From a bacterium (GTDB lineage Bacteria; UBP6; UBA1177), in NCBI GenBank assembly GCA_016290135.1, contig JAEESW010000020.1:1-40329 (forward strand): a DNA stretch of 40,329 bases, written 5' to 3'. Shown here one piece after another: positions 1,433 through 11,209 of this stretch. The stretch's first letter is position 1, and every line of letters starts with the position of its first letter. The notes under the pieces were generated by a model, which saw only the letters and a program-made list of their open reading frames with translations, made no database searches and was not told where the DNA came from. A program made the position numbers and the translations under genes.

Positions 1433-4400
1433 ATGAAGCAGGTGACGCTGAAAAACGATGTGACGAAAACAGTTTCGCTCGATGCTGTATCTCAGGATTT
1501 TGTGTGTGAGCGGAAAGACTCGGCTACAGGCTGGAAATACGATGTGAAGGAAGAGCTTGGGCGCGGCGGTATCGGCAAGGTCATGGTCGCTTTCGACCGG
1601 ACTGTGGGGCGCGAGATCGCTTTGAAAGAGCTTATAAGCAGCAATGAAGACGGTCATATTCCTTCTCTCGACAAAATGAGGAGCGACGAGGCCCGCTTTT
1701 TGAGAGAGGCCTGCGTCACGGGACAACTCGAGCACCCTGGGATCGTTCCTGTTTACGAGATCGGCAGGAAACCTGATGAAAACCGTTACTACACGATGCG
1801 TCTTGTCCGCGGTGTTACCCTTTCACAGGCGATAAAAGATGCCGGAACACTCGAAAAACGTCTCCGTCTGCTTCCTCATTTCCGCGACATCTGCAACGCG
1901 ATCGCTTATTCGCACAGCCGCGGCGTGATCCACCGCGACATAAAACCGGAAAACATAATGATAGGGGAATTCGGTGAAACAGTCGTTCTTGACTGGGGTC
2001 TCGCGAAAGTCAAAGGCGAAGACGATACCGCAGACAGCGAGCTTCGCGAAGAACTCAACCTCCTCAAAGTCGAAAATATAGGAATGACGGTCAGGGGAAA
2101 GGCGATCGGGACTCCCGCATACATGTCTCCGGAGCAGGCGAGAGGCGACATCTCGGCGATAGACGAACGTAGCGACATATACTCTCTCGGAGCCGTTCTC
2201 TACGAGATACTGACCGGTATCCCTCCGTTCAAAGGGAAGGATGTCCAGGAAACTTTGGATCTGGTAAAAACTTCCGATCCTGTGGATATAACTGTGTATG
2301 AGCCGGCTTCTCCGCCAGATCTCTGCGCAGTCGTCTCAAAAACGCTGACGAAAGATCCCGGATCGCGCTATCAGTCGGCGCTGGAAGTCGCGAAAGAGAT
2401 CGAAAATTTCATGTCAGGCGGCAAGATCGCGGCCTACGAATACAGTTCGTGGGAGATGTTCAAGCGTTTCGTTGCAAAGAACAAGTCGCTTTCGGTGCTT
2501 GCTGCAACGCTTTTTGCCGTTCTGATCTTTGCTTCAGCTGCCGTTTTCGTGGCTTACCGGGATTCTCTCAGCAACGAGAGGGCGGCACACCTCAATCTCT
2601 CTTTGGGATATCTCGAGTATGCCGAAAAACTGCTGAAAGAAGGGAAGTATTCGGATTCCGAGATCTTTGCGGCGGCATCGCTTTATCATTCGCCGTTCAA
2701 TCCGAAGAGCCCGTGGAGTTATTCAGACACCTATCTTGCCGAAAATATTGATGAAAGCCGTGAACACATGCTGAAAATACAGTCTCTGCTCTATCTTTCA
2801 AGAGTTTACGGCAACAACGCTTTCAAAGGTAATGTCACAAGTGTCGGTTTTGATGCCAGAGTCGTCTCGGTTTCGCCTGACGCATCTCTTTTTGCTGTAT
2901 CGGGCAAAAGAAAGGAGGTCAAAGTTTATTCCGCCGACGGGACCGAAAGGTTCACTCTCAGCGGACACAAGGACGAAGTGAGCGCTGTGGAGTTCTCTTC
3001 CGACGGCAGGTTTATCGCTACGGGAAGCTGGGACAACAACCTTATCCTGTGGAACGCTTCCGACGGTTCGCAGATAAAATCCCTGTCGACCCTTGCAGGC
3101 GAGATATACACTCTCGCGTTTTCGCCGGGAAACAGGTTCATTGCGTTCGGAGGAACGGAAAAGACACTTTGGATCGTAAAGACCGATGACCTTACTATTG
3201 CTGCTGCCGGCAGATTCGAACTCGAAAATACGGTCCGCAGCATCGACTGGGCGCCTGACGGGAAAAAGCTCCTTGTTTCCGACAGTTCAGGGAAGATATA
3301 CCTCATCTCGGTAAGCGGGATCGAAAAAATCTTCGAATTCCACAGCGAGCCGACAGTCGCGGTCAAGTTCCTTAACGACGGGATCCACTTCATATCGGCA
3401 AGCTATGACAAAAGGTTTGCTCTCTGGAACCTTCATTTTGACAAACCGCTTACTGTTTACGAGCACTGGGACGCATTTTTCTCGCTTGATGTGTCGAATG
3501 ACGGAACTCTTGCCGCGGTCGCCGCGCGTGACGGATCGATAAAACTTGCGAACCTTGTGACAAGGCAGATCGACGATCTCCGTGACCATACGGGTTCGGT
3601 CTATTCTGTCATGTTTCTTCCGATGGGCAATTCTCTTGTTTCTGTAGGCGAGGACCGTTTCGTAAAGCTGTGGAGGACTGATTTCACAAAGGAGATGCAG
3701 CGGCTTCGCGGACACACGACGTACATTCCTGCGCTTGCATACTCTCCTGACGAGAAGTTTCTTGCATCGTCGAGCTGGGATTTTACGATAAAACTGTGGA
3801 ACATTTCCACGGAATCGGCGGTTTCTTCCTTCGGTATTGAAGGAACTGTGCCTTACAGCCTTGCATTTTCTCCCGACGGACAGTTCCTTGCATCCGGAGA
3901 TTCTGACGGGATGCTCCGTTTCTGGAATCCTATGACTGGCAAGATGATATTTTCGTATCAGCTCCACAGTGACCAGATCTCAGCGATAAAATTCATAGAC
4001 CGCGGCAGGACGGTGATTTCTGCCGGCAAAGACAGGATAGTCAACATTTTCAATTTGTCTGAAAGGCGTGTCGTGAAAGTTCTTGAACACGAAAATCCTG
4101 TGAACACTGTGGCTGTTTCGGCTGACGGAACGCTTGCGGCAAGCGCCGGACGCAACGGAGAGATAAACTTCTGGGCTCTTCCTGAAGGAAAACTCCTCTT
4201 CGGGACGAAAGGGGGCAGCGGAAAGTCTGTCCTTTCTCTCGCGATCTCTCCTGACAACAGTGTCGCCGTTTCAGCCGATGAGGACGGAGTCATCAACAAG
4301 TGGGACATAAGATCCATGAAAATAGCGGAGACATTCCGTGAAAGTTCCGGTTCTGTCAACGCGGTCGCATTTTCGGAAGACGGGGAAATGTTCGTCTCCG

Positions 4401-4648
4401 CCGGAAGGGAGGTCGTTGTCAGAAGAACGTCAGATTCTCAGAAGATCATGGAGTTCGACCTGCAGTATGCGGCTTACAGCGTGGCATTCGAAAAAAGCGG
4501 AAAGTTCTTTGTCGTCAGTGACGGAGCCGTCATCAAGCGTTATCCGGTCATTTCCGAGATGTGGAAGTTCGATCCTGCGGAACTTTTGGAAGAGACGCAG
4601 AAAGAGGCGGGCAAAAGACTCGAAGGCTTTAAACTGATCCCTTTTTAA
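1433..4648 (+). CDS. Transmembrane Ser/Thr protein kinase with C-terminal WD40 repeats
   Basis: A 1071-residue Hanks-type kinase joined to a beta-propeller. The kinase domain covers about residues 35-330: glycine loop GRGGIGKV (43-50), ATP-binding Lys in IALKEL (K65), catalytic loop HRDIKPEN (167-174), metal-binding motif DWG (187-189, instead of the usual DFG) and GTPAYMSPEQARG (226-238). A single hydrophobic segment at about 352-375 should be the membrane anchor, leaving the kinase in the cytoplasm. From about residue 476 to 1045 there are many WD40-like repeats, with recurring SPDG..(L/I)A(S/T)G and D..I.LWN patterns, predicted to face the periplasm. Such kinase-propeller fusions are known in Myxococcota and Planctomycetes. 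Start ATG has AAAGGTG upstream and lies 9 bp after the permease stop; cinA-type pncC starts 9 bp after its end. The input signal and targets are unknown. Confidence 0.93.
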   Translation: MKQVTLKNDVTKTVSLDAVSQDFVCERKDSATGWKYDVKEELGRGGIGKVMVAFDRTVGREIALKELISSNEDGHIPSLDKMRSDEARFLREACVTGQLEHPGIVPVYEIGRKPDENRYYTMRLVRGVTLSQAIKDAGTLEKRLRLLPHFRDICNAIAYSHSRGVIHRDIKPENIMIGEFGETVVLDWGLAKVKGEDDTADSELREELNLLKVENIGMTVRGKAIGTPAYMSPEQARGDISAIDERSDIYSLGAVLYEILTGIPPFKGKDVQETLDLVKTSDPVDITVYEPASPPDLCAVVSKTLTKDPGSRYQSALEVAKEIENFMSGGKIAAYEYSSWEMFKRFVAKNKSLSVLAATLFAVLIFASAAVFVAYRDSLSNERAAHLNLSLGYLEYAEKLLKEGKYSDSEIFAAASLYHSPFNPKSPWSYSDTYLAENIDESREHMLKIQSLLYLSRVYGNNAFKGNVTSVGFDARVVSVSPDASLFAVSGKRKEVKVYSADGTERFTLSGHKDEVSAVEFSSDGRFIATGSWDNNLILWNASDGSQIKSLSTLAGEIYTLAFSPGNRFIAFGGTEKTLWIVKTDDLTIAAAGRFELENTVRSIDWAPDGKKLLVSDSSGKIYLISVSGIEKIFEFHSEPTVAVKFLNDGIHFISASYDKRFALWNLHFDKPLTVYEHWDAFFSLDVSNDGTLAAVAARDGSIKLANLVTRQIDDLRDHTGSVYSVMFLPMGNSLVSVGEDRFVKLWRTDFTKEMQRLRGHTTYIPALAYSPDEKFLASSSWDFTIKLWNISTESAVSSFGIEGTVPYSLAFSPDGQFLASGDSDGMLRFWNPMTGKMIFSYQLHSDQISAIKFIDRGRTVISAGKDRIVNIFNLSERRVVKVLEHENPVNTVAVSADGTLAASAGRNGEINFWALPEGKLLFGTKGGSGKSVLSLAISPDNSVAVSADEDGVINKWDIRSMKIAETFRESSGSVNAVAFSEDGEMFVSAGREVVVRRTSDSQKIMEFDLQYAAYSVAFEKSGKFFVVSDGAVIKRYPVISEMWKFDPAELLEETQKEAGKRLEGFKLIPF

Positions 4649-5125: not shown

Positions 5126-5599
5126 TTTTATTTTCCGGCATTTTCGCCATCTCAACGGAAATGTGTGTTTTGAGGTTTTCTGGATCACCGAATCAATGAT
5201 TTTGATGCAGAAACCATACCCGATGTTCAGCAGTACTTTGTATTTTTTCATGTTTTCCGAATCATCTGGGGAAAAATTCAAGTCTATTTCGGAGTAGAGC
5301 CCCTGTTTGACAGGAATCATTTTTTTATTGATGAAAAATGAAAGATCTCAAAGTCATTTCACGGAAATTCCATGAAAAAATCAGAAACTTATTTTGTGAA
5401 ACTCTGGGAGCTTAGGTCTGCCCGCCCGCAAAAATCAACCCCTTGTTCTGTGAAACGTGCGCTAATCGGAGTTGCGGATTGAGAGTGCTTAGTTTGATGT
5501 TAAAAATTGTTTTGCAAGATTATATGAAACTCGTCTTGACTTTTTTTATATTTAATTCTAAAGTTTTATGTTGTAAGAATCTTGTTTTGGGGTTTTGAA
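5126..5599. other. Intergenic stretch with first interspersed repeat
   Basis: The stretch separates the housekeeping operon from the accessory island. It becomes visibly AT-richer than the flanking genes from about 5130 onward. It contains repeat copy 1 (5389-5478) and the short leader of the AlbA_2 gene. A 69-codon open frame on the minus strand (5111-5320) has no ribosome-binding site and no recognisable product, so I do not call it a gene. No convincing terminator was seen after pncC. Confidence 0.6.
5389..5478 (+). repeat. Interspersed repeat copy 1 (90 bp)
   Basis: This is base-for-base identical over 90 bp to 7104-7193. It starts TTATTTTGTGAAACTC and ends GGAGTTGCGGA. Internally it contains two related blocks, (T/C)TG(T)GAAAC near the start and again about 48 bp later, so it looks like part of a repeating unit. 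Partial copies lie at 8359-8424 and 9211-9261. All four are in the same orientation. Confidence 0.9.
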
Positions 5600-7033
5600 T
5601 TGAGCATTAAAGATTTGATAAAAGATTTGATTGATCACAGATATGAAGAGGAATGGTTTGAATTTAAGGTGAATTGGTTTGAACCGAAGATTTTGGGTGA
5701 ATATGTTTCCGCGCTTTCCAACGCTGCCGCTCTCGCAGGACGGGAAAATGCTTATTTTATCTGGGGAATCGAAGACAAAACACACAAAGTAGTGGGAACG
5801 AATTTTGATTACCGCCGAAATATAAACAACGAACCGCTTCCACATTTTCTTGCCCGGCAGATAAGGCCTGACATAGCTTTATGTTTTCAGGAAACCGCTT
5901 TTCAGGGCAGAAGGCTTGTTGTTTTGACTATTCCGGCAGCTAAAAAAGCTCCTACCGCTTTTGATAAAACAAGATACATGCGTATCGGGTCGAGCAAAAT
6001 CAATTTGATGAATTTTCCTGAGCACGAGGCTCAACTTTTCAGTGTTCTTAGAAACGGAGTTCCGACATTGGAAAATACTGAATCAGAATGTCAGAAACTT
6101 ACTTTTGGAAAACTCATGGTGTATTACGAAGCTAAGGGAGTCCCGCTTAATAAACGGAAATTTAAAGAAAATTTAGGTTTTTTCACTTCAACAGGCAAAT
6201 ACAATATGCTTGCACAGCTTATGTCGGACAACAGCCATATTCCTGTCAGGTTTTCTCTTTTTACCGGAAACGACAAAACATCGCTCATGTATTCTGTTCG
6301 GGAATTCGGCAACACCTGTCTTCTTTATTCTCTTGATGATGTAATTCAATACGGAAACATCCTCAATATTCCGATAGCCGACGAACGGGAGCGCATTGTC
6401 GAGCGCAAAGAAATAATGCGGTTTGACAAAGATGCGTTTCGCGAAGCAGTGATAAATGCTTTTGTTCATAACCGTTGGATTGACGGAAATGCTCCGATGT
6501 TCACTGGCTACGCAAACCGAATAGAAATTTTATCACATGGCAATCTCCCGCCCAAACAGACTTTGGAAGGTTTCTATGCCGGAAGATCCATCCCGGTAAA
6601 CAGCGGATTGTCAGACATCATCCTCCAACTGCATATTTCTGAACGCAGCGGAAGAGGAATTCCCAAAATTATCGGAACATACGGCAGGGAAAACATTCAT
6701 ATCGAGGAAAAATCTATTACTGTCACCATTCCTTATGAAGCAGAAAATGCACCAGTTGAAGCAGAAAATGCACCAGTTGAAGCAGAAAATGCACCAGTTG
6801 AAGCAGAAAATGCACCAGTTGAAGCAGAAAATGAACCAGTTAACAAACAGGAACGGATTCTTTCGTATTGTATGAAACCTAAAAGCATATCTGAAATTGC
6901 TGAGATGCTTGGATATAAAGATAAAAGAAGCGTTCGCAAACTGCTGAATCCTATGCTTGAAATAGGAAGAATCAGCAGAACTATACCAGATAAACCGAAC
7001 AGCAAGAGTCAAAAATATATAACTGTTAAATAA
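5600..7033 (+). CDS. AlbA_2 / HATPase_c_4 protein (putative ATP- and nucleic-acid-binding regulator)
   Basis: The protein has an N-terminal AlbA_2 (Schlafen-like) domain at about residues 10-140: EEWFEFKVNW, ALSNAAALAGRENAYFIWGI, and RYMRIGSSK. The middle/C-terminal part has a GHKL ATPase-like module (REAVINAFVHNRW, IEILSHGNLP, ERSGRGIPKI). A linker of five EAENAPV-type heptapeptides (21-bp repeats, 6737-6841) then leads to a winged-helix-like tail (KSISEIAEMLGYKDKRSVRK). This architecture is common in accessory and defence-type regions, but its biochemical role is not settled. I prefer the TTG at 5600, with TGGGG 8 bp upstream; another TTG at 5582 would add six residues. It lies alone between two identical 90-bp repeats, so it may be gained or lost as a unit. 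Confidence 0.85.
   Translation: MSIKDLIKDLIDHRYEEEWFEFKVNWFEPKILGEYVSALSNAAALAGRENAYFIWGIEDKTHKVVGTNFDYRRNINNEPLPHFLARQIRPDIALCFQETAFQGRRLVVLTIPAAKKAPTAFDKTRYMRIGSSKINLMNFPEHEAQLFSVLRNGVPTLENTESECQKLTFGKLMVYYEAKGVPLNKRKFKENLGFFTSTGKYNMLAQLMSDNSHIPVRFSLFTGNDKTSLMYSVREFGNTCLLYSLDDVIQYGNILNIPIADERERIVERKEIMRFDKDAFREAVINAFVHNRWIDGNAPMFTGYANRIEILSHGNLPPKQTLEGFYAGRSIPVNSGLSDIILQLHISERSGRGIPKIIGTYGRENIHIEEKSITVTIPYEAENAPVEAENAPVEAENAPVEAENAPVEAENEPVNKQERILSYCMKPKSISEIAEMLGYKDKRSVRKLLNPMLEIGRISRTIPDKPNSKSQKYITVK
6737..6841 (+). repeat. Five tandem 21-bp repeats coding for an EAENAPV linker
   Basis: Four copies of GAAGCAGAAAATGCACCAGT(T) are followed by a fifth with one substitution (GCA to GAA, Ala to Glu). 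The 21-bp unit is a multiple of three, so changes in copy number keep the reading frame and only alter the length of the acidic linker between the ATPase-like module and the winged-helix tail. The near identity of the copies suggests recent expansion. Confidence 0.97.
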
Positions 7034-7199: not shown

Positions 7200-8216
7200 C
7201 TAATTCAATTTCAGCTCTCTATTCAAAAGCAGAGATCCTAGCGTGTTTTTATAATCTGCCAATCCTTTGATTTCTGTTATTGTCGTGATCCTGCTCCCTG
7301 CGTCTTTGCTGGATGCGCCGCAGTGGTAGAGCCTTTCGTTGTTCGTGCCGAAATCAATGGCGATATATCTGTCGTGGATCTTGCCTAAAGAAGCAATGAA
7401 TTTTATTTTAATATCGGGATATTCCTTCAAAAAATCGTTGTATTCATGGAGTTTCAGATGATTTTTTCCTTTGTTGTCACTTATGATTGTGATCTGAATC
7501 CCGCTTTTAGCACTTGCGAGATGGTGCAGAGTTTTAAGTCCCAAATAATCGTCAATCACAATGACGCTTTTTTCTGCAGTGCCGTAGATTTTCTGGTACG
7601 CGAGATCGGCTTTGAACGGCTCTCCGTCAAGAATCAGTATTTCGTCGTTCCTGATTCCGGTGTCGAAAAGTTTTATAAAATCTGACAATTCACCCTTTTT
7701 CACCATGTTTTCTTCAATATCCTGAATTTTGTCGGAAAGTTTTTCCTGCCTGTTTTGAAGCAGTCTCAATTCTTCATAAGGCAAAAGCTGAGTATTTTGC
7801 AGAATATGATGAGCGACTTCAACGAAAACTTCCATTATTAAAATGCTTGCTTCTATCGCTCTGTCTGTGTGAAGCACGGATGTCAGCATCGAAAGTCCGT
7901 GTTCAGTGTAAACATAAGGCAAATATTTTGAGTATTTACCCTGTTCTAATTCTAAGATGCCAATTTGGCATCTTAGAATTTCGTGATACTCCTCTCTTGA
8001 AATTTGAAAGCAGAATTTTGGCGGGAATCGCTTGATATTTCGCTTCATTGCCCTGTTGAGAGCAGCTGTTTCAACCCCGAAATAGGCGGCAATATCGCTG
8101 TCAAGCATGACGCGAAGACCGCGGATTTCGTAAATCTGTGATTTTACTTTTTCCCTGTCGACCTGCTCTAAGATAGAGACTTCGTTTTTGTTAATGATTT
8201 CGAGTCGTTTTGGCAT
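7200..8216 (-). CDS. ORF6N-domain protein with C-terminal PLD-like region
   Basis: A 338-residue protein. Residues about 20-125 form an ORF6N domain (RGLRVMLDSDIAAYFGVE, LNRAMKRNIKRFPPKFCFQI, LPYVYTEHGLSML), a predicted DNA-binding module first described in phage antirepressor-type proteins. A short coiled-coil-like stretch follows (RLLQNRQEKLSDKIQDIEEN). The C-terminal half contains KIHDRYIAIDFG and YHCGASSKDAG, which resemble the active-site strand and following loop of phospholipase-D-like domains, though the classical HxK reads HDR here. Start ATG has AGGATG about 7 bp upstream. The DNA encoding EILRCQIGILE is a perfect 33-bp palindrome (7948-7980). The gene runs opposite to its neighbours. 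The function is unknown; a phage- or transposon-derived regulator is the best guess. Confidence 0.85.
   Translation of the reverse strand: MPKRLEIINKNEVSILEQVDREKVKSQIYEIRGLRVMLDSDIAAYFGVETAALNRAMKRNIKRFPPKFCFQISREEYHEILRCQIGILELEQGKYSKYLPYVYTEHGLSMLTSVLHTDRAIEASILIMEVFVEVAHHILQNTQLLPYEELRLLQNRQEKLSDKIQDIEENMVKKGELSDFIKLFDTGIRNDEILILDGEPFKADLAYQKIYGTAEKSVIVIDDYLGLKTLHHLASAKSGIQITIISDNKGKNHLKLHEYNDFLKEYPDIKIKFIASLGKIHDRYIAIDFGTNNERLYHCGASSKDAGSRITTITEIKGLADYKNTLGSLLLNRELKLN
7948..7980. repeat. Perfect 33-bp palindrome inside the ORF6N coding region
   Basis: Two 16-bp arms, AATTCTAAGATGCCAA and its exact reverse complement, are separated by a single base. On the coding (minus) strand the central base is the first position of the Ile codon in RCQ-I-GIL. 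A matching palindrome with unrelated arms sits on the aligned Ile codon of the other ORF6N gene (8831-8859). In single-stranded DNA or mRNA it would form a long hairpin. Confidence 0.98.
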
Positions 8217-8580
8217 GACAATTCATCCTGTTTATTGTTAGTCATACGTTTCTCAGTGGACAAAAAATGCCACTTTTCCATCTTTGCCAAACCAAAACTT
8301 TGATATTTTATAGATTTGTTTTAAAAAATCTATGATAATTTTGAAAATCGATCCTCTGCCTTGTGATTTCTGTCGGAGCTTAAGTCTGCCCACCTGCAAA
8401 AATCAACCCCTTGCTTTGTGAGACATGGTGCTACTCAGTGCTTCTGACACCATGCTTTATCTTAAATTTTGATAATTTTAAGACTTATTCTTTGGAATTT
8501 TGATAATTGTAAAAATAAATCTTGATTTGTTGACTAAAATATTTATTTTACTTCTCAATAATATTTCTTTGGAGTTTGAA
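8217..8580. other. Divergent intergenic stretch between the two ORF6N genes
   Basis: AT-rich region between two divergently read ORF6N genes, and therefore the likely home of both promoters. It contains a small inverted repeat at 8310-8333 (ATAGATTT arms), repeat copy 3 (8359-8424), and next to it an inverted repeat with CATGGTG/CACCATG arms at 8424-8454. An in-frame upstream extension of the plus-strand ORF6N gene begins at 8500, but the well-placed ribosome-binding site favours the ATG at 8581. No clear consensus promoter was seen. Confidence 0.55.
8359..8424 (+). repeat. Interspersed repeat copy 3 (diverged)
   Basis: It aligns with the first two-thirds of copies 1 and 2 (GGAGCTTAAGTCTGCCCACC and then the shared CAACCCCTTG block) with several substitutions. 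It is immediately followed by a CATGGTG/CACCATG inverted repeat that the other copies lack. The divergence shows this copy is older than the identical pair 1/2. Confidence 0.8.
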
Positions 8581-9195
8581 ATGGAGAAGGAAATTCTGAT
8601 CCGCAGCGAACAAGATTCGCAAGCAAATCAAAGCAGAGATCTGTTGCCTGTTCTATATTCACAGGTAGAAAAGAAGATCGTTATCGTCAGAAATATGCCT
8701 GTGATTTTGGATGCCGATGTCGCTGCACTGTATGGTGTCGAAACAAAGAGGGTAAACGAGGCCATAAAAAACAATCCCGACAAGTTCCCGGAAGATTATA
8801 TGTTTGCGTTGACAAACGAAGATTTACAAGATTTGCGGTCGAAAATTTCGACCGCAAATGTGTCTTCTAAAAGCAGAAGCCTTCCGAAAGTATTTACTGA
8901 AAAAGGCTTGTATATGCTCGCAACGATACTTAAAAGTAAGCGTGCAACAAAGGTGACATTTGCAATTATCGAGACTTTGCCAAGGTAAGAAATTTGAAAC
9001 GCGAACTGGTCAGTTTTCACAAAGAAAAAGACAAGCAGAAACAAAAACGACAAAATGCGGTGCTTTGGAGAAGTTCTTTCCGATATTGTTATGCCTGACT
9101 TGGAAACGTCGGAAACAGAATCTACTTTGGAACTGAATTTTATTATCGGAAAAATAAAGCACAGCGTTAAAAGAGTCAGAAAAAAGCAAAATTGA
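8581..9195 (+). pseudogene. ORF6N-domain protein gene, disrupted by two frameshifts
   Basis: The first open segment (8581-8988, ATG preceded by GGAG) encodes a good ORF6N domain: RNMPVILDADVAALYGVE, FPEDYMFALTNEDL, LPKVFTEKGLYMLATIL. It then ends in ETLPR-stop. Adding one T to the TTT run at 8976-8978 restores ETFAKVRNLKRELVSFHKEK, the normal ORF6N continuation. A second shift between about 9035 and 9070 is needed to reach GEVLSDIVMP, ELNFIIGKIKHSVKR and the stop at 9193-9195, the usual family C-terminus. The gene is therefore a recent pseudogene, or the assembly has two indels. Programmed frameshifting is less likely because two events are needed. A 29-bp palindrome lies at 8831-8859. Confidence 0.82.
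8831..8859. repeat. Perfect 29-bp palindrome inside the ORF6N pseudogene
   Basis: Two 14-bp arms, ATTTGCGGTCGAAA and its exact reverse complement, are separated by one A. That A is the first base of the Ile codon in RSK-I-STA, which aligns with RCQ-I-GIL of the neighbouring intact ORF6N protein. The arm sequence shows no similarity to the 33-bp palindrome at 7948-7980. Confidence 0.98.
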
Positions 9196-9338: not shown

Positions 9339-9650
9339 TTATCTATGAGATTTTGATCGTTTATGTGGCCCTGAATGTTTTTTTGTTTTATTGGGTTTTC
9401 TGTTTTGAGGTGTCTCAGAAGATCTGTGCGCTTTGTGTTTTTCCAACTCTGCTTCTGCAATAAAAGCACATTTCCCTTTTGGAAAATTCTTAAGATAATT
9501 TTCCCATACCTTTACATCATTGGCCTTTGTTGCGTATTCACAGGCTAAAGAATCAGCTTCCACTCTCTGTTGTAATTGAATTCTATTAGGTCGGCATCCA
9601 ACAAAGAAAAATAGTGTAAAAAGCGTGAAAACAGCACAGAATTTTTTCAT
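9339..9650 (-). CDS. Small lipoprotein, function unknown
   Basis: A 103-residue protein with a typical lipoprotein signal: KK, a hydrophobic run and the lipobox FFVGC, giving Cys19 as the probable lipidated residue. Mature part: a helical segment with the pattern WENYLKNFPKGKCAFIAEAE, which resembles a single repeat of the W..YL..FP.G.CA..A type found in secreted proteins of related bacteria. The tail is very basic (KPNKTKKHSGPHKRSKSHR). Start ATG has GGAG 6 bp upstream. The reading frame stays open upstream through the pentanucleotide satellite, but that satellite has no stops in any frame, so the open frame is not evidence for a longer protein. Changes in satellite length could alter its promoter region. 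Confidence 0.7.
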   Translation of the reverse strand: MKKFCAVFTLFTLFFFVGCRPNRIQLQQRVEADSLACEYATKANDVKVWENYLKNFPKGKCAFIAEAELEKHKAHRSSETPQNRKPNKTKKHSGPHKRSKSHR

Positions 9651-10018
9651 ACTAAACTCCATAAAACAAAAAAAAGTTCCCGAAATTATTAGAAAAATCT
9701 GAAATTTTTCGGCTGAAAAACTTGACTTGGGAGAAACGGGGATACGCTTTTTTAATAATGCGTTGCGTTGCGTTGCGTTGCGTTGCGTTGCGTTGCGTTG
9801 CGTTGCGTTGCGTTGCGTTGCGTTGCGTTGCGTTGCGTTGCGTTGCGTTGCGTGGCGTTGCGTTGCGTTGCGTTGCGTTGCGTTGCGTTGCGTTGCGTTG
9901 CGTTGCGTTGCGTTGCGTTGCGTTGCGTTGCGTTGCGGAATCATTTTGTCTTCAAATGAAATCATCAAAAAAACAACAAATAATAATAAAGAAAGGGGAG
10001 AGAAATGCAAGTTTTTGA
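9651..10018. other. Intergenic stretch holding a pentanucleotide satellite
   Basis: This region lies between the end of cca and the start of the small lipoprotein, both read leftward. It is dominated by the tandem repeat at 9759-9937. The remaining 109 bp next to the lipoprotein start is AT-rich and probably carries its promoter; the 80 bp on the other side holds short A- and T-runs. Apparent open frames across the repeat on both strands are an effect of its composition. Confidence 0.7.
9759..9937. repeat. Pentanucleotide tandem repeat (TGCGT)n, about 36 copies
   Basis: 179 bp of uninterrupted 5-bp units with a single T-to-G change at 9854. It starts 109 bp upstream of the small lipoprotein start codon. 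Units of five bases are typical of contingency loci that change copy number by slipped-strand mispairing. Here the position is upstream of a gene, not inside a proven coding region, so an effect on promoter spacing is more likely than frame switching. Confidence 0.98.
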
Positions 10019-11209
10019 CTATCTTTTTGCTATCTCTTTGTATTTCAAAACTCTGAGCTGGGTAAGGATATCCGAGCTTTTTTTTCCTGCGTTCCAGTAT
10101 TTTTCGGGAAGTTTTACGTCGAGGACGGGAAGCATCTTTCTGATGAAGGCTCTGGCATCGTCATTTTGTCTTGCATTGTCGGCTTTGACTGCGTCCATGA
10201 AACCGTCGAGTCCGCACGAGCATTTAAGTATGTTCTGAATGATGGTGATCGCTTTTTTCGGAGTGATCTTGTCGATCTCCCGGACTATCATGTGGTATTT
10301 TGCGACTGTTTTTGCCGCAAATCTGTAACGCTCCGGGACATTTTTCATTCTTCGGCAGAAGTTTTCGATTATCGGGACCCCCGCTTTGTCGTGTCCGTAG
10401 TGGTGCGGGTAGTTGTCAGGCGAAGATGCTGCCTTTCCCCAGTCGTGGCAGAGCGCGGCAAACATGGCGACAGGGTCGTTATTGCCTGAGTCTTTAAGCC
10501 TGTCCATTGTTTCGATCGTGTGGATGAAGGCGTCTCCTTCGGGATGATACTGGATCGGGCCTGCCGGAACGCCGATGAGATCAGCGACTTCGGGAAAGTG
10601 AAATTTCAGCAAATCCGCCTCTTTCAAGACCTCGAAAAACCGGCCCGGACGGGGGTAGGTGAGCGCCTTTTCAAGTTCTTTCCAGACTCGTTCGTTCGAG
10701 AGAAAAAGAAGCTCCTCTCCGATAGAATCCATGAGCTTTATCGTGCTTTCATCGACTGAAAAATCGGGAAATTTCGCGGCGAAACGTGCTACTCTGTAAA
10801 CACGCAGCGGGTCTTCGGCAAAAGCCTCCGAAACATGGACTATCCTTTTGTTTTTCAGGTCGTTGATACCGCCGAAAGGGTCGATGTATCTGCCCGGAAC
10901 ATCGGGATCTTTTGCGATCGCGTTTATCGTGATGTCGCGCCGTTTCAGATCTTCGTCTAAAGTGACTTTCGGCGAAAAATCGACATCGAAACCAGTGTAG
11001 CCGTGACCGTTTTTGCGCTCACGCCGTGCAAAGGCGTATTCGTCACCGTCGACAATGAAAACGGGAAACGATTTTCCGACTTTCTCCGCTTTCGGAAATT
11101 TTTCCAGAAACTCGGCTTCAGTCGCACCGACGACGACAAAATCCCTGTCGTTTGCTTCAATTCCCAGGATTTCATCGCGGACTGAGCCGCCGACAGCATA
11201 GATTTTCAT
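10019..11209 (-). CDS. cca: CCA-adding enzyme (tRNA nucleotidyltransferase) with HD domain
   Basis: Adds or repairs the 3'-CCA end of tRNAs without a nucleic-acid template. The protein opens with AVGGSVRDEILG and the metal-binding pair in NDRDFVVVGA (D21, D23), then RRERKNGHGY and KRRDITINAIA, the class II nucleotidyltransferase signatures. The C-terminal half has an HD-type phosphohydrolase region (FAALCHDWGKA, HYGHDKAG), as in the E. coli-type multifunctional Cca. Length of 396 aa fits that type (about 410). It follows the nitrilase-family gene by 11 bp on the same strand, which suggests cotranscription. Confidence 0.95.
   Translation of the reverse strand: MKIYAVGGSVRDEILGIEANDRDFVVVGATEAEFLEKFPKAEKVGKSFPVFIVDGDEYAFARRERKNGHGYTGFDVDFSPKVTLDEDLKRRDITINAIAKDPDVPGRYIDPFGGINDLKNKRIVHVSEAFAEDPLRVYRVARFAAKFPDFSVDESTIKLMDSIGEELLFLSNERVWKELEKALTYPRPGRFFEVLKEADLLKFHFPEVADLIGVPAGPIQYHPEGDAFIHTIETMDRLKDSGNNDPVAMFAALCHDWGKAASSPDNYPHHYGHDKAGVPIIENFCRRMKNVPERYRFAAKTVAKYHMIVREIDKITPKKAITIIQNILKCSCGLDGFMDAVKADNARQNDDARAFIRKMLPVLDVKLPEKYWNAGKKSSDILTQLRVLKYKEIAKR

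Follow-up and report, generated by a model that had tools for sequence, protein, structure and literature searches.

A pure pentanucleotide array that precedes a small lipoprotein gene looks to be downstream of a predicted gene-directed promoter and inside an apparent upstream open reading frame (ORF), in a leader that is common to dozens of loci. We consider it roughly an even bet (probability ~0.5) that the array is the switch in a contingency leader, in which an upstream ORF runs through the array and the number of repeat units sets the frame in which this ORF meets the gene start. The architecture of the leader, its stop-free arrays, its open frames, and the change in array length between species are visible in the genomes themselves. 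The original prediction for this locus was that the copy number of a satellite might tune or switch expression of the lipoprotein. Part of that idea stands, as array length varies between species, a surface-type lipoprotein lies downstream, and the context fits repeat-driven switching. However, the array is neither a promoter spacer nor a plain satellite.

The array lies between cca and a small lipoprotein gene

In the window, which is the whole 40,329-nucleotide stretch of DNA that was analyzed, Tandem Repeats Finder detected 35.8 copies of TGCGT with period 5, 98% matches, and a score of 351, a copy number that may be inexact because the host genome is a draft assembly (66 contigs, 2.47 Mb) and many copies of the element in relatives stop at contig ends. 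Read from the sequence, the sole interior substitution in the array replaces GCGTT with GCGTG at ~9853, in agreement with the ~36 copies and single substitution that had been predicted. The lipoprotein ATG, with its A at 9650 on the - strand, begins 108 nt from the array edge, within one base of the predicted 109 bp. The 103-aa protein behind the array has an N terminus (MKKFCAVFTLFTLFFFVGC, then RPN...) with a lipobox-like end by a simple motif, as expected for the surface-type lipoprotein that had been proposed. Array and lipoprotein gene are downstream of, and in the same orientation as, cca (Table 1), an upstream core gene found in 15/15 genomes of the genus. Searches of the window yielded no Rfam match at gathering scores and no tRNA.

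Table 1 Positions of genes and leader parts at the lipoprotein locus in the window
Feature	Position	Strand	Description
Small lipoprotein, 103 aa	9342..9650	-	No Pfam match
TAG, ends another exit frame 1 nt before lipoprotein ATG	9652..9654	-	Predicted coupled frame, n-1 units
Lipoprotein Shine-Dalgarno (SD) GGAG	9657..9660	-	Read from sequence
L element (ATTATTAAAAAAGCGTATCCCCGTTTCTCCCAAGTCAAG...)	9713..9758	-	On + strand: TTGACT (9722-9727) then TACGCT (9743-9748)
TAA, closes one exit frame 104 nt before lipoprotein	9752..9754	-	Predicted OFF frame, n+1 units
Pentanucleotide array	9759..9937	-	Gene-sense unit AACGC, 35.8 copies; encodes (NATQR)n in every frame
Predicted upstream-ORF start ATG	9942..9944	-	ATG ATT CCG then array; stop-free up to lipoprotein stop
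R element leader	9945..9982	-	Weak SD-like GAAGAC (9953-9948); conserved 'TTTGAAGACAAAATGAT' in 12-sequence alignment
R element promoter	9983..10010	-	-35 TTGCAT (10010-10005), 16-bp spacer, -10 TATTAT (9988-9983)
cca: tRNA nucleotidyltransferase/poly(A) polymerase with HD domain	10019..11209	-	Pfam PolyA_pol, PolyA_pol_RNAbd, HD

The array had also been proposed to mark the right border of an accessory island. This proposal fits in that the lipoprotein side differs among genomes while the cca side is present in 15/15, but this lipoprotein is also present in genome G007, along with one ORF6N gene of the two in the window. These ORF6N-domain genes, at 7200-8216 (-) and 8500-8988 (+), lie between a Schlafen/AlbA_2-type ORF (5582-7033, with five copies of a 21-bp repeat at 6736-6841) and the lipoprotein gene, and the G007 stretch that was compared aligns with the first of them and not with the part of the window that holds the second. 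Elsewhere in the window, at 1433-4648, a protein kinase domain is fused to a long WD40 propeller region.

The runner-up array in the window is a 21-bp repeat within an ORF, with a Tandem Repeats Finder score of 205. An exact four-unit match to the pentanucleotide array is unique within its own genome, and among the arrays listed in a 440-kb sample of this genome (~18%; 20 stretches from five chosen contigs plus the window) there is no further pure 5- or 7-bp array with four or more copies. The sample does contain one 3-copy array of TGAAAGA. Most of its longer arrays are within ORFs, according to a crude ORF call, and have periods that are multiples of 3.

The leader recurs across the genus

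Sequences flanking the array have matches in 15 of 61 genomes, 14 of which belong to the genus (14 of its 15 genomes), often with several matches per genome and often at contig ends. We built two sequence models, R1 for the L element (from the array side to AAGTCAAG) and R2 for the R element (from promoter to array), and scored 150 candidates per genome with each. R1 gave at least 42 matches with E < 1e-3 in 13/15 genus genomes, rising to 14/15 genomes at E <= 0.05, and these counts are lower bounds. R2 gave at least 11-65 matches per genome in all 15 genomes at E <= 0.05, with most of those listed corresponding to the promoter part only. Among 13 genomes from related genera, families, and the phylum, R1 matched in one and R2 in four, all weakly. 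Spread beyond the genus was discarded as an explanation for these matches, as five of the six weakly matched loci were inspected and an array was found in none. As far as these searches reach, the element is restricted to the genus. The relatives that hold the leader pattern come from rumen, reticulum, abomasum, or RUG assemblies, and some of the records carry the unverified label uncultured Spirochaetales.

In most copies with both flanks visible, the order in the direction of the gene is AAAAACTTGCC-N16-TAAAAT, a T-rich leader ending in GAAGACAAAATGAT, the array, ATTATTAAAAAAGCG...AAGTCAAG, an AT-rich stretch, the SD sequence, and the gene. A pure short tandem array thus sits in a conserved leader between a predicted promoter and a gene. 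Units in the pentamer class are AACGC, AACAC, AGCAC, or AACTC, while a heptamer class has the same order with the 7-bp units AATCAGG, AATCAAG, AATCAGA, or CAACAGT. An inward-pointing AAAAACTTGxCTT in both flanks raised the idea of a mobile element with terminal inverted repeats. We set it aside because the right copy is part of the promoter motif with at least 11-65 matches per genome and the left copy is a consensus promoter in the heptamer class. Just upstream of several R elements (L034, L046, L047, and others) there is a palindrome-like repeat (GTCATTCTGAGC...GCTCAACATGAC) and repeats of GCGGGCGG...CCGCCCGC. Long repeats of 9, 12, 24, and 27 bp, unlike the leader arrays, occur in a run of neighbouring ORFs at ~9.7-18 kb of L223 (G000:C44:1-20000).

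The leader precedes 56 genes in our set, of which 34 encode a lipobox by a simple motif, 16 have a Sec-like start by a crude criterion (including G012:C18, apparently a mis-call), and six have neither. Three of the four translated proteins tested contain an Lcl_C domain. Two lipoprotein genes appear to be broken, ending early after 38 aa in G009:C42, where the leader is off, and after 33 aa in G003:C10, where the leader has no start at the usual place.

A predicted promoter precedes the array and, in heptamer loci, an opposing one follows it

In an alignment of 12 sequences, the boxes and spacing of the R promoter are conserved, with relatives having AAAAACTTGCC-N16-TAAAAT. A sigma-70 scan of the window did not list the R copy, and listed one site elsewhere in the region compared with 0.6 expected, whereas in the G000:C52 homologue it did list the R promoter, with 9/12 matches. 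The R promoter is predicted by conservation, and the array would lie between its transcript start and the start codon.

A second predicted promoter, in the L element, points into the array from the opposite direction. The pattern TTGA[CT]T, 16-17 nt, TATAAT (TACAAT once) occurs in 15/15 heptamer loci, including L192-L202, although it was written after the sequences had been seen and without a shuffle control. At G000:C52 the opposing promoter has 11/12 matches, and the scan lists three sites there compared with 1.1 expected. Pentamer loci keep CTTGACT in 28/35 cases and a consensus -10 in 0/35 (the window has TACGCT), and the scan of the window listed no opposing-promoter site. Although the frame in which the L element is read differs among loci, its DNA is conserved, so it must have an additional role. 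The putative opposing promoter is conserved beyond the needs of an upstream ORF.

An upstream frame stays open to the gene start

All eight unit types are stop-free in every gene-sense frame, while 3/8 are stop-free in antisense. This property of the units is weak evidence by itself because tandem copies would contain no stop for ~76% of possible 5-mers and 69% of possible 7-mers anyway. The sequence beyond the array is more informative. In 50/50 loci analyzed by script, one or more frames remain stop-free between the array and a point within 18 nt of the gene start, and six loci that the script could not resolve agree, so that an open frame exists in 56/56. For the 50 loci, dinucleotide shuffles lead to an expectation of 25.1 and the reverse strand of the same stretches gives 23/50. 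Ordinary intergenic leaders of the window genome (90 nt each) have an open frame in 12/46 cases in sense and 24/46 on the reverse strand. Ordinary leaders are thus more open on the reverse strand, and array loci show the opposite bias. Because the loci are homologous, significance drops with clustering: one representative per 80%-identity cluster gives 17/17 open compared with 7.1 expected, 70% clusters give 7/7 compared with 3.1 (P about 5e-4), and 65% clusters give 5/5 compared with 2.1 (P about 2e-3).

Among the 50 scripted loci there is one open frame in 37, two in 12, and three in one, so the switch would not always be one in three. All 15 heptamer loci have exactly one. In the closed frames, a stop mostly follows soon after the array. 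The open frames at 56/56 loci are as expected for a translationally coupled upstream ORF, which in some frame would reach or overlap the start of the next gene. The set of 56 leaves out G009:C20 (gene start off the contig), three heptamer loci truncated by a contig end (L198, L199, L201), loci whose arrays are remnant, fused, or absent (L176, L203, L208, L209, L210), and R-element matches without an L element. For six loci outside the set, the frame is open to the gene start in L176, L203, L170, and L171, to -9 in L159, and past the start in L165, with L170, L171, L159, and L165 saying little because the stretch is only 14-34 nt. At L208 (G013:C28:813-861), the heptamer leader ORF, with SD and TTG, appears by eye to be in frame with a longer non-lipoprotein coding sequence.

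The start of the putative upstream ORF is clearer in one class than in the other. In 10/15 heptamer loci an SD-like GAGGAG, GAGAGG, AAGGAG, or GAGG is found a few nt before a TTG, and of the remaining five, two are truncated at a contig end. Pentamer leaders start with ATG or GTG (TTG in one) behind a weak SD of GAAG or GAGG with 3-4 matching bases, which counts against a frame switch, as do three loci (G009:C55, G003:C10, G000:C21) that have no start at the conserved place despite a visible leader. Some leaders overlap an upstream gene. In three genomes the array immediately follows the same HepT-like gene (PF01934; the G003 copy has E = 7.9e-15); two of these loci share one lipoprotein and the third has a different one. 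At all three loci (G003:C23, G004:C49, G011:C4) the leader start overlaps the HepT-like stop as TGATG. At G009:C52 the leader ATG falls within the final codons of an open frame of 405 codons (GATGAATAA), and the 42-codon leader ORF ends as ATGA on the lipoprotein ATG. The loci with these TGATG or 405-codon overlaps are among those that lack the R promoter.

A permanent N-terminal extension of the lipoprotein was also considered, as the frame is open through in the window, but this explanation was rejected since the gene's own frame is stop-free in only 10/50 loci.

Copy number may switch translational coupling

In the mechanism that we propose, the promoter just behind cca would transcribe the leader, array, L element, and lipoprotein gene as one message. 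Ribosomes would start at the leader ATG and translate through the stop-free array. With units of 5 bp, or 7 bp in sister loci, every unit gained or lost would move the exit frame. For one such frame, and at some loci for two, the upstream ORF would reach the lipoprotein start and end beside it (...GGAG TT TAG TATG; elsewhere an ATGA overlap), which should couple or boost translation of the lipoprotein. In the other frame or frames it would mostly end soon after the array, ~60-200 nt short of the gene. Since most closed frames meet a stop just beyond the array, translational coupling is probably switched by copy number. Three steps of this mechanism are our inference: the promoter and leader ATG would have to be active, coupling would have to set lipoprotein output, and switching would have to occur within a population. 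That periods are only 5 or 7, compared with mostly multiples of 3 for arrays within ORFs, counts in favor of this mechanism.

The frame states predicted from individual loci are less favorable. At the locus in the window, the predicted leader ATG and the lipoprotein ATG are 294 nt apart, a multiple of 3, which puts this locus in a fused state. With 36 units, the upstream ORF would be in frame with the lipoprotein as a 98-codon stop-free extension; one unit fewer would give the coupled TAG frame, and one more the early stop. Predicted starts allowed 37 of the 56 loci to be scored, with 13 coupled, 3 fused, and 21 off, and addition of G011:C58 (coupled) and G008:C66 (off), both missed by the start motif, gives 14 coupled, 3 fused, and 22 off among 39. 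The unscored loci comprise the three with no start at the conserved place, with the rest cut by contig ends or not scored. The on states, at 44% of 39 loci, are close to the expectation for a random frame (64 open frames of 150, 43%), which counts against a frame switch, as does the finding that two of the three HepT-linked loci are off and the third is fused. The lipoprotein locus in the window and the orthologous one in G007 are both fused, the least easily explained state, and the G007 array is probably too short to switch.

Two further ideas about coupling were rejected. Short arrays were coupled in 9/17 cases compared with 4/20 for long arrays (Fisher P = 0.047, with a threshold of our own choosing and the two motif-missed loci excluded), or 10/17 compared with 6/20 when fused loci are counted as on (P = 0.10), so that a tendency of short arrays to be locked ON more often is suggestive at most. 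Sequestration of the SD sequence by the L element was dismissed because pairing is no greater than with shuffled leaders. The gene SD is predicted to be mostly paired, but the mean unpaired value is 0.274 compared with 0.241 with shuffled leaders, and it falls below the shuffle mean in 20/50 loci. This result does not support a need for coupling.

Array length changes and flanks appear to be exchanged between genomes

Array length varies among related genomes, a comparison suggested with the original prediction, with unit counts here coming from draft assemblies and one genome per species. The array in the window has 35.8 units and that in G007 has ~3, with flanks that are 88% identical upstream and 97% identical downstream. 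One lipoprotein has 2.6, 7.4, 16.4, and 3.8 units in four genomes, and G001:C76 and G014:C13 have 9.2 and 7.2 units with 450 nt of identical downstream sequence.

We compared flanks between loci, 41 of the 56 offering >150 nt of upstream sequence. Upstream sequences that are alike to the array or to within ~30 nt of it, with unrelated downstream sequences, were found for G000:C44 and G007:C1b compared with G008:C16 (91%), G003:C23 and G011:C4 compared with G004:C49 (94-95%), and G000:C52 compared with G012:C18b (79%). In a fourth case, G009:C42 and G012:C18 (91%), the likeness ends at least 75 nt short of the array. The reverse arrangement, with downstream sequences alike and upstream sequences different, was found for G009:C52 and G007:C1b (99.6%) and for G011:C4 and G011:C58 (89%), while G004:C3 and G008:C66 are alike downstream (86%) and upstream for only 42 nt. 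Other pairs, such as the window and G007, keep both flanks. From these comparisons the array appears to be a seam for exchange of promoters and genes. Assembly chimeras are unlikely for several of the swaps because the arrays are short (<5 units).

Alternative explanations for the arrays

The array could instead act in a 5' untranslated region, where its length would tune the mRNA or its translation gradually with no upstream ORF. Its place between a predicted promoter and the gene agrees with this idea, as does a similar case reported for the AGAT repeats of Moraxella UspA2 (PMC4679880). However, a gradual tuner does not predict open frames in 56/56 loci, units that lack stops, overlaps of start and stop, or the restriction of periods to 5 and 7, and we consider it unlikely. 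Somewhat less likely still is that the arrays serve chiefly to let lipoprotein cassettes swap behind resident promoters. Flank pairs with shared upstream and unrelated downstream sequence and pairs with the reverse argue for it, and several of their arrays have <5 units, which makes assembly chimeras unlikely there, but the open frames and the constant period that is not a multiple of 3 would be unexplained, other pairs keep both flanks, and some swaps could be assembly joins across long arrays.

Two other readings are improbable to a similar degree. The antisense promoter in the L element could fire through the array, with length setting promoter interference or an antisense RNA being made. 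The consensus promoter in 15/15 heptamer loci, CTTGACT in 28/35 pentamer loci, and 11/12 matches at G000:C52 argue for such a device, while the poor -10 of the 35 pentamer loci, including the window (0/35 consensus), and the unlisted window site argue against it, and it leaves the frame effects unexplained. Alternatively, the microsatellite could be slipping neutrally in a copied leader that tolerates it, with no effect. Loci with remnant arrays or none (G003:C1, G004:C25, G013:C28) and the random look of the predicted ON and OFF states agree with neutrality, but it fits poorly with the preserved open frame and with the eight unit types that occupy one slot in a leader that is conserved elsewhere. 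A frame switch through an upstream ORF remains our preferred reading. An extended form of it, which we put forward tentatively and as doubtful in its entirety, is a genus-wide 'phasome' of tens of mostly exported-protein genes that share a portable leader, with frame-switched coupling, an opposing promoter on the far side of the array, and the array as crossover point for gene swaps behind resident promoters.

Comparison with known repeat-based switches

With a pure array at a functional position and a length that varies between genomes, the locus would work like a slipped-strand contingency locus. Heptanucleotide STRR repeats of cyanobacteria form heptamer arrays between genes, as here, and the CAACAGT unit seen here is one that we take to be the STRR3 unit, but we know of no STRR repeats in translated leaders of lipoproteins. 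In the Beggiatoaceae, TAACTGA heptamers form many intergenic arrays just upstream of genes in one lineage (PMC4679880), a likeness to the heptamer class described here. However, the TAACTGA unit holds TAA and TGA and lies by the start codon in place of an SD sequence, whereas the units here are stop-free and the SD sequence follows ~100 nt later.

In Neisseria opa genes, CTCTT pentamers are inside the gene's own leader-peptide (signal) sequence and expression is set by frame (PMC3745409). Both opa and the loci described here have a pentanucleotide tract, several loci per genome, surface proteins, and expression set by frame, which here is proposed. The opa tract is within the gene, whereas here it would be in an upstream ORF of its own, which finishes at the gene or short of it. 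The locus is not of the Opa type because the array lies upstream of the lipoprotein ATG, outside the regulated gene. The AGAT repeats of Moraxella UspA2 and the G tract of UspA1 are between promoter and start codon and vary in copy number (PMC4679880), and thus resemble the arrays here in lying between a promoter (here predicted) and the start of a surface-protein gene. They are reported to lie in an untranslated region, as a tetramer or homopolymer, and the source passage describes no upstream ORF, whereas here 5- and 7-mers lie in a putative upstream ORF.

Among the papers listed in a literature search, with subscription journals mostly outside its scope, none concerns an upstream ORF that is encoded by repeats and coupled to a phase-variable gene. 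Frame-switching repeats inside coding sequences and repeats in untranslated leaders that act as tuners are both known. If our reading is true, these leaders would be a third arrangement, in which repeats encode an upstream ORF and one of its frames meets the gene start. The surface protein itself would be untouched, so the same leader could be moved before any gene, and the eight unit types found in the same slot fit this possibility. The uncultured rumen genus would then have a multi-locus set of switchable lipoproteins.
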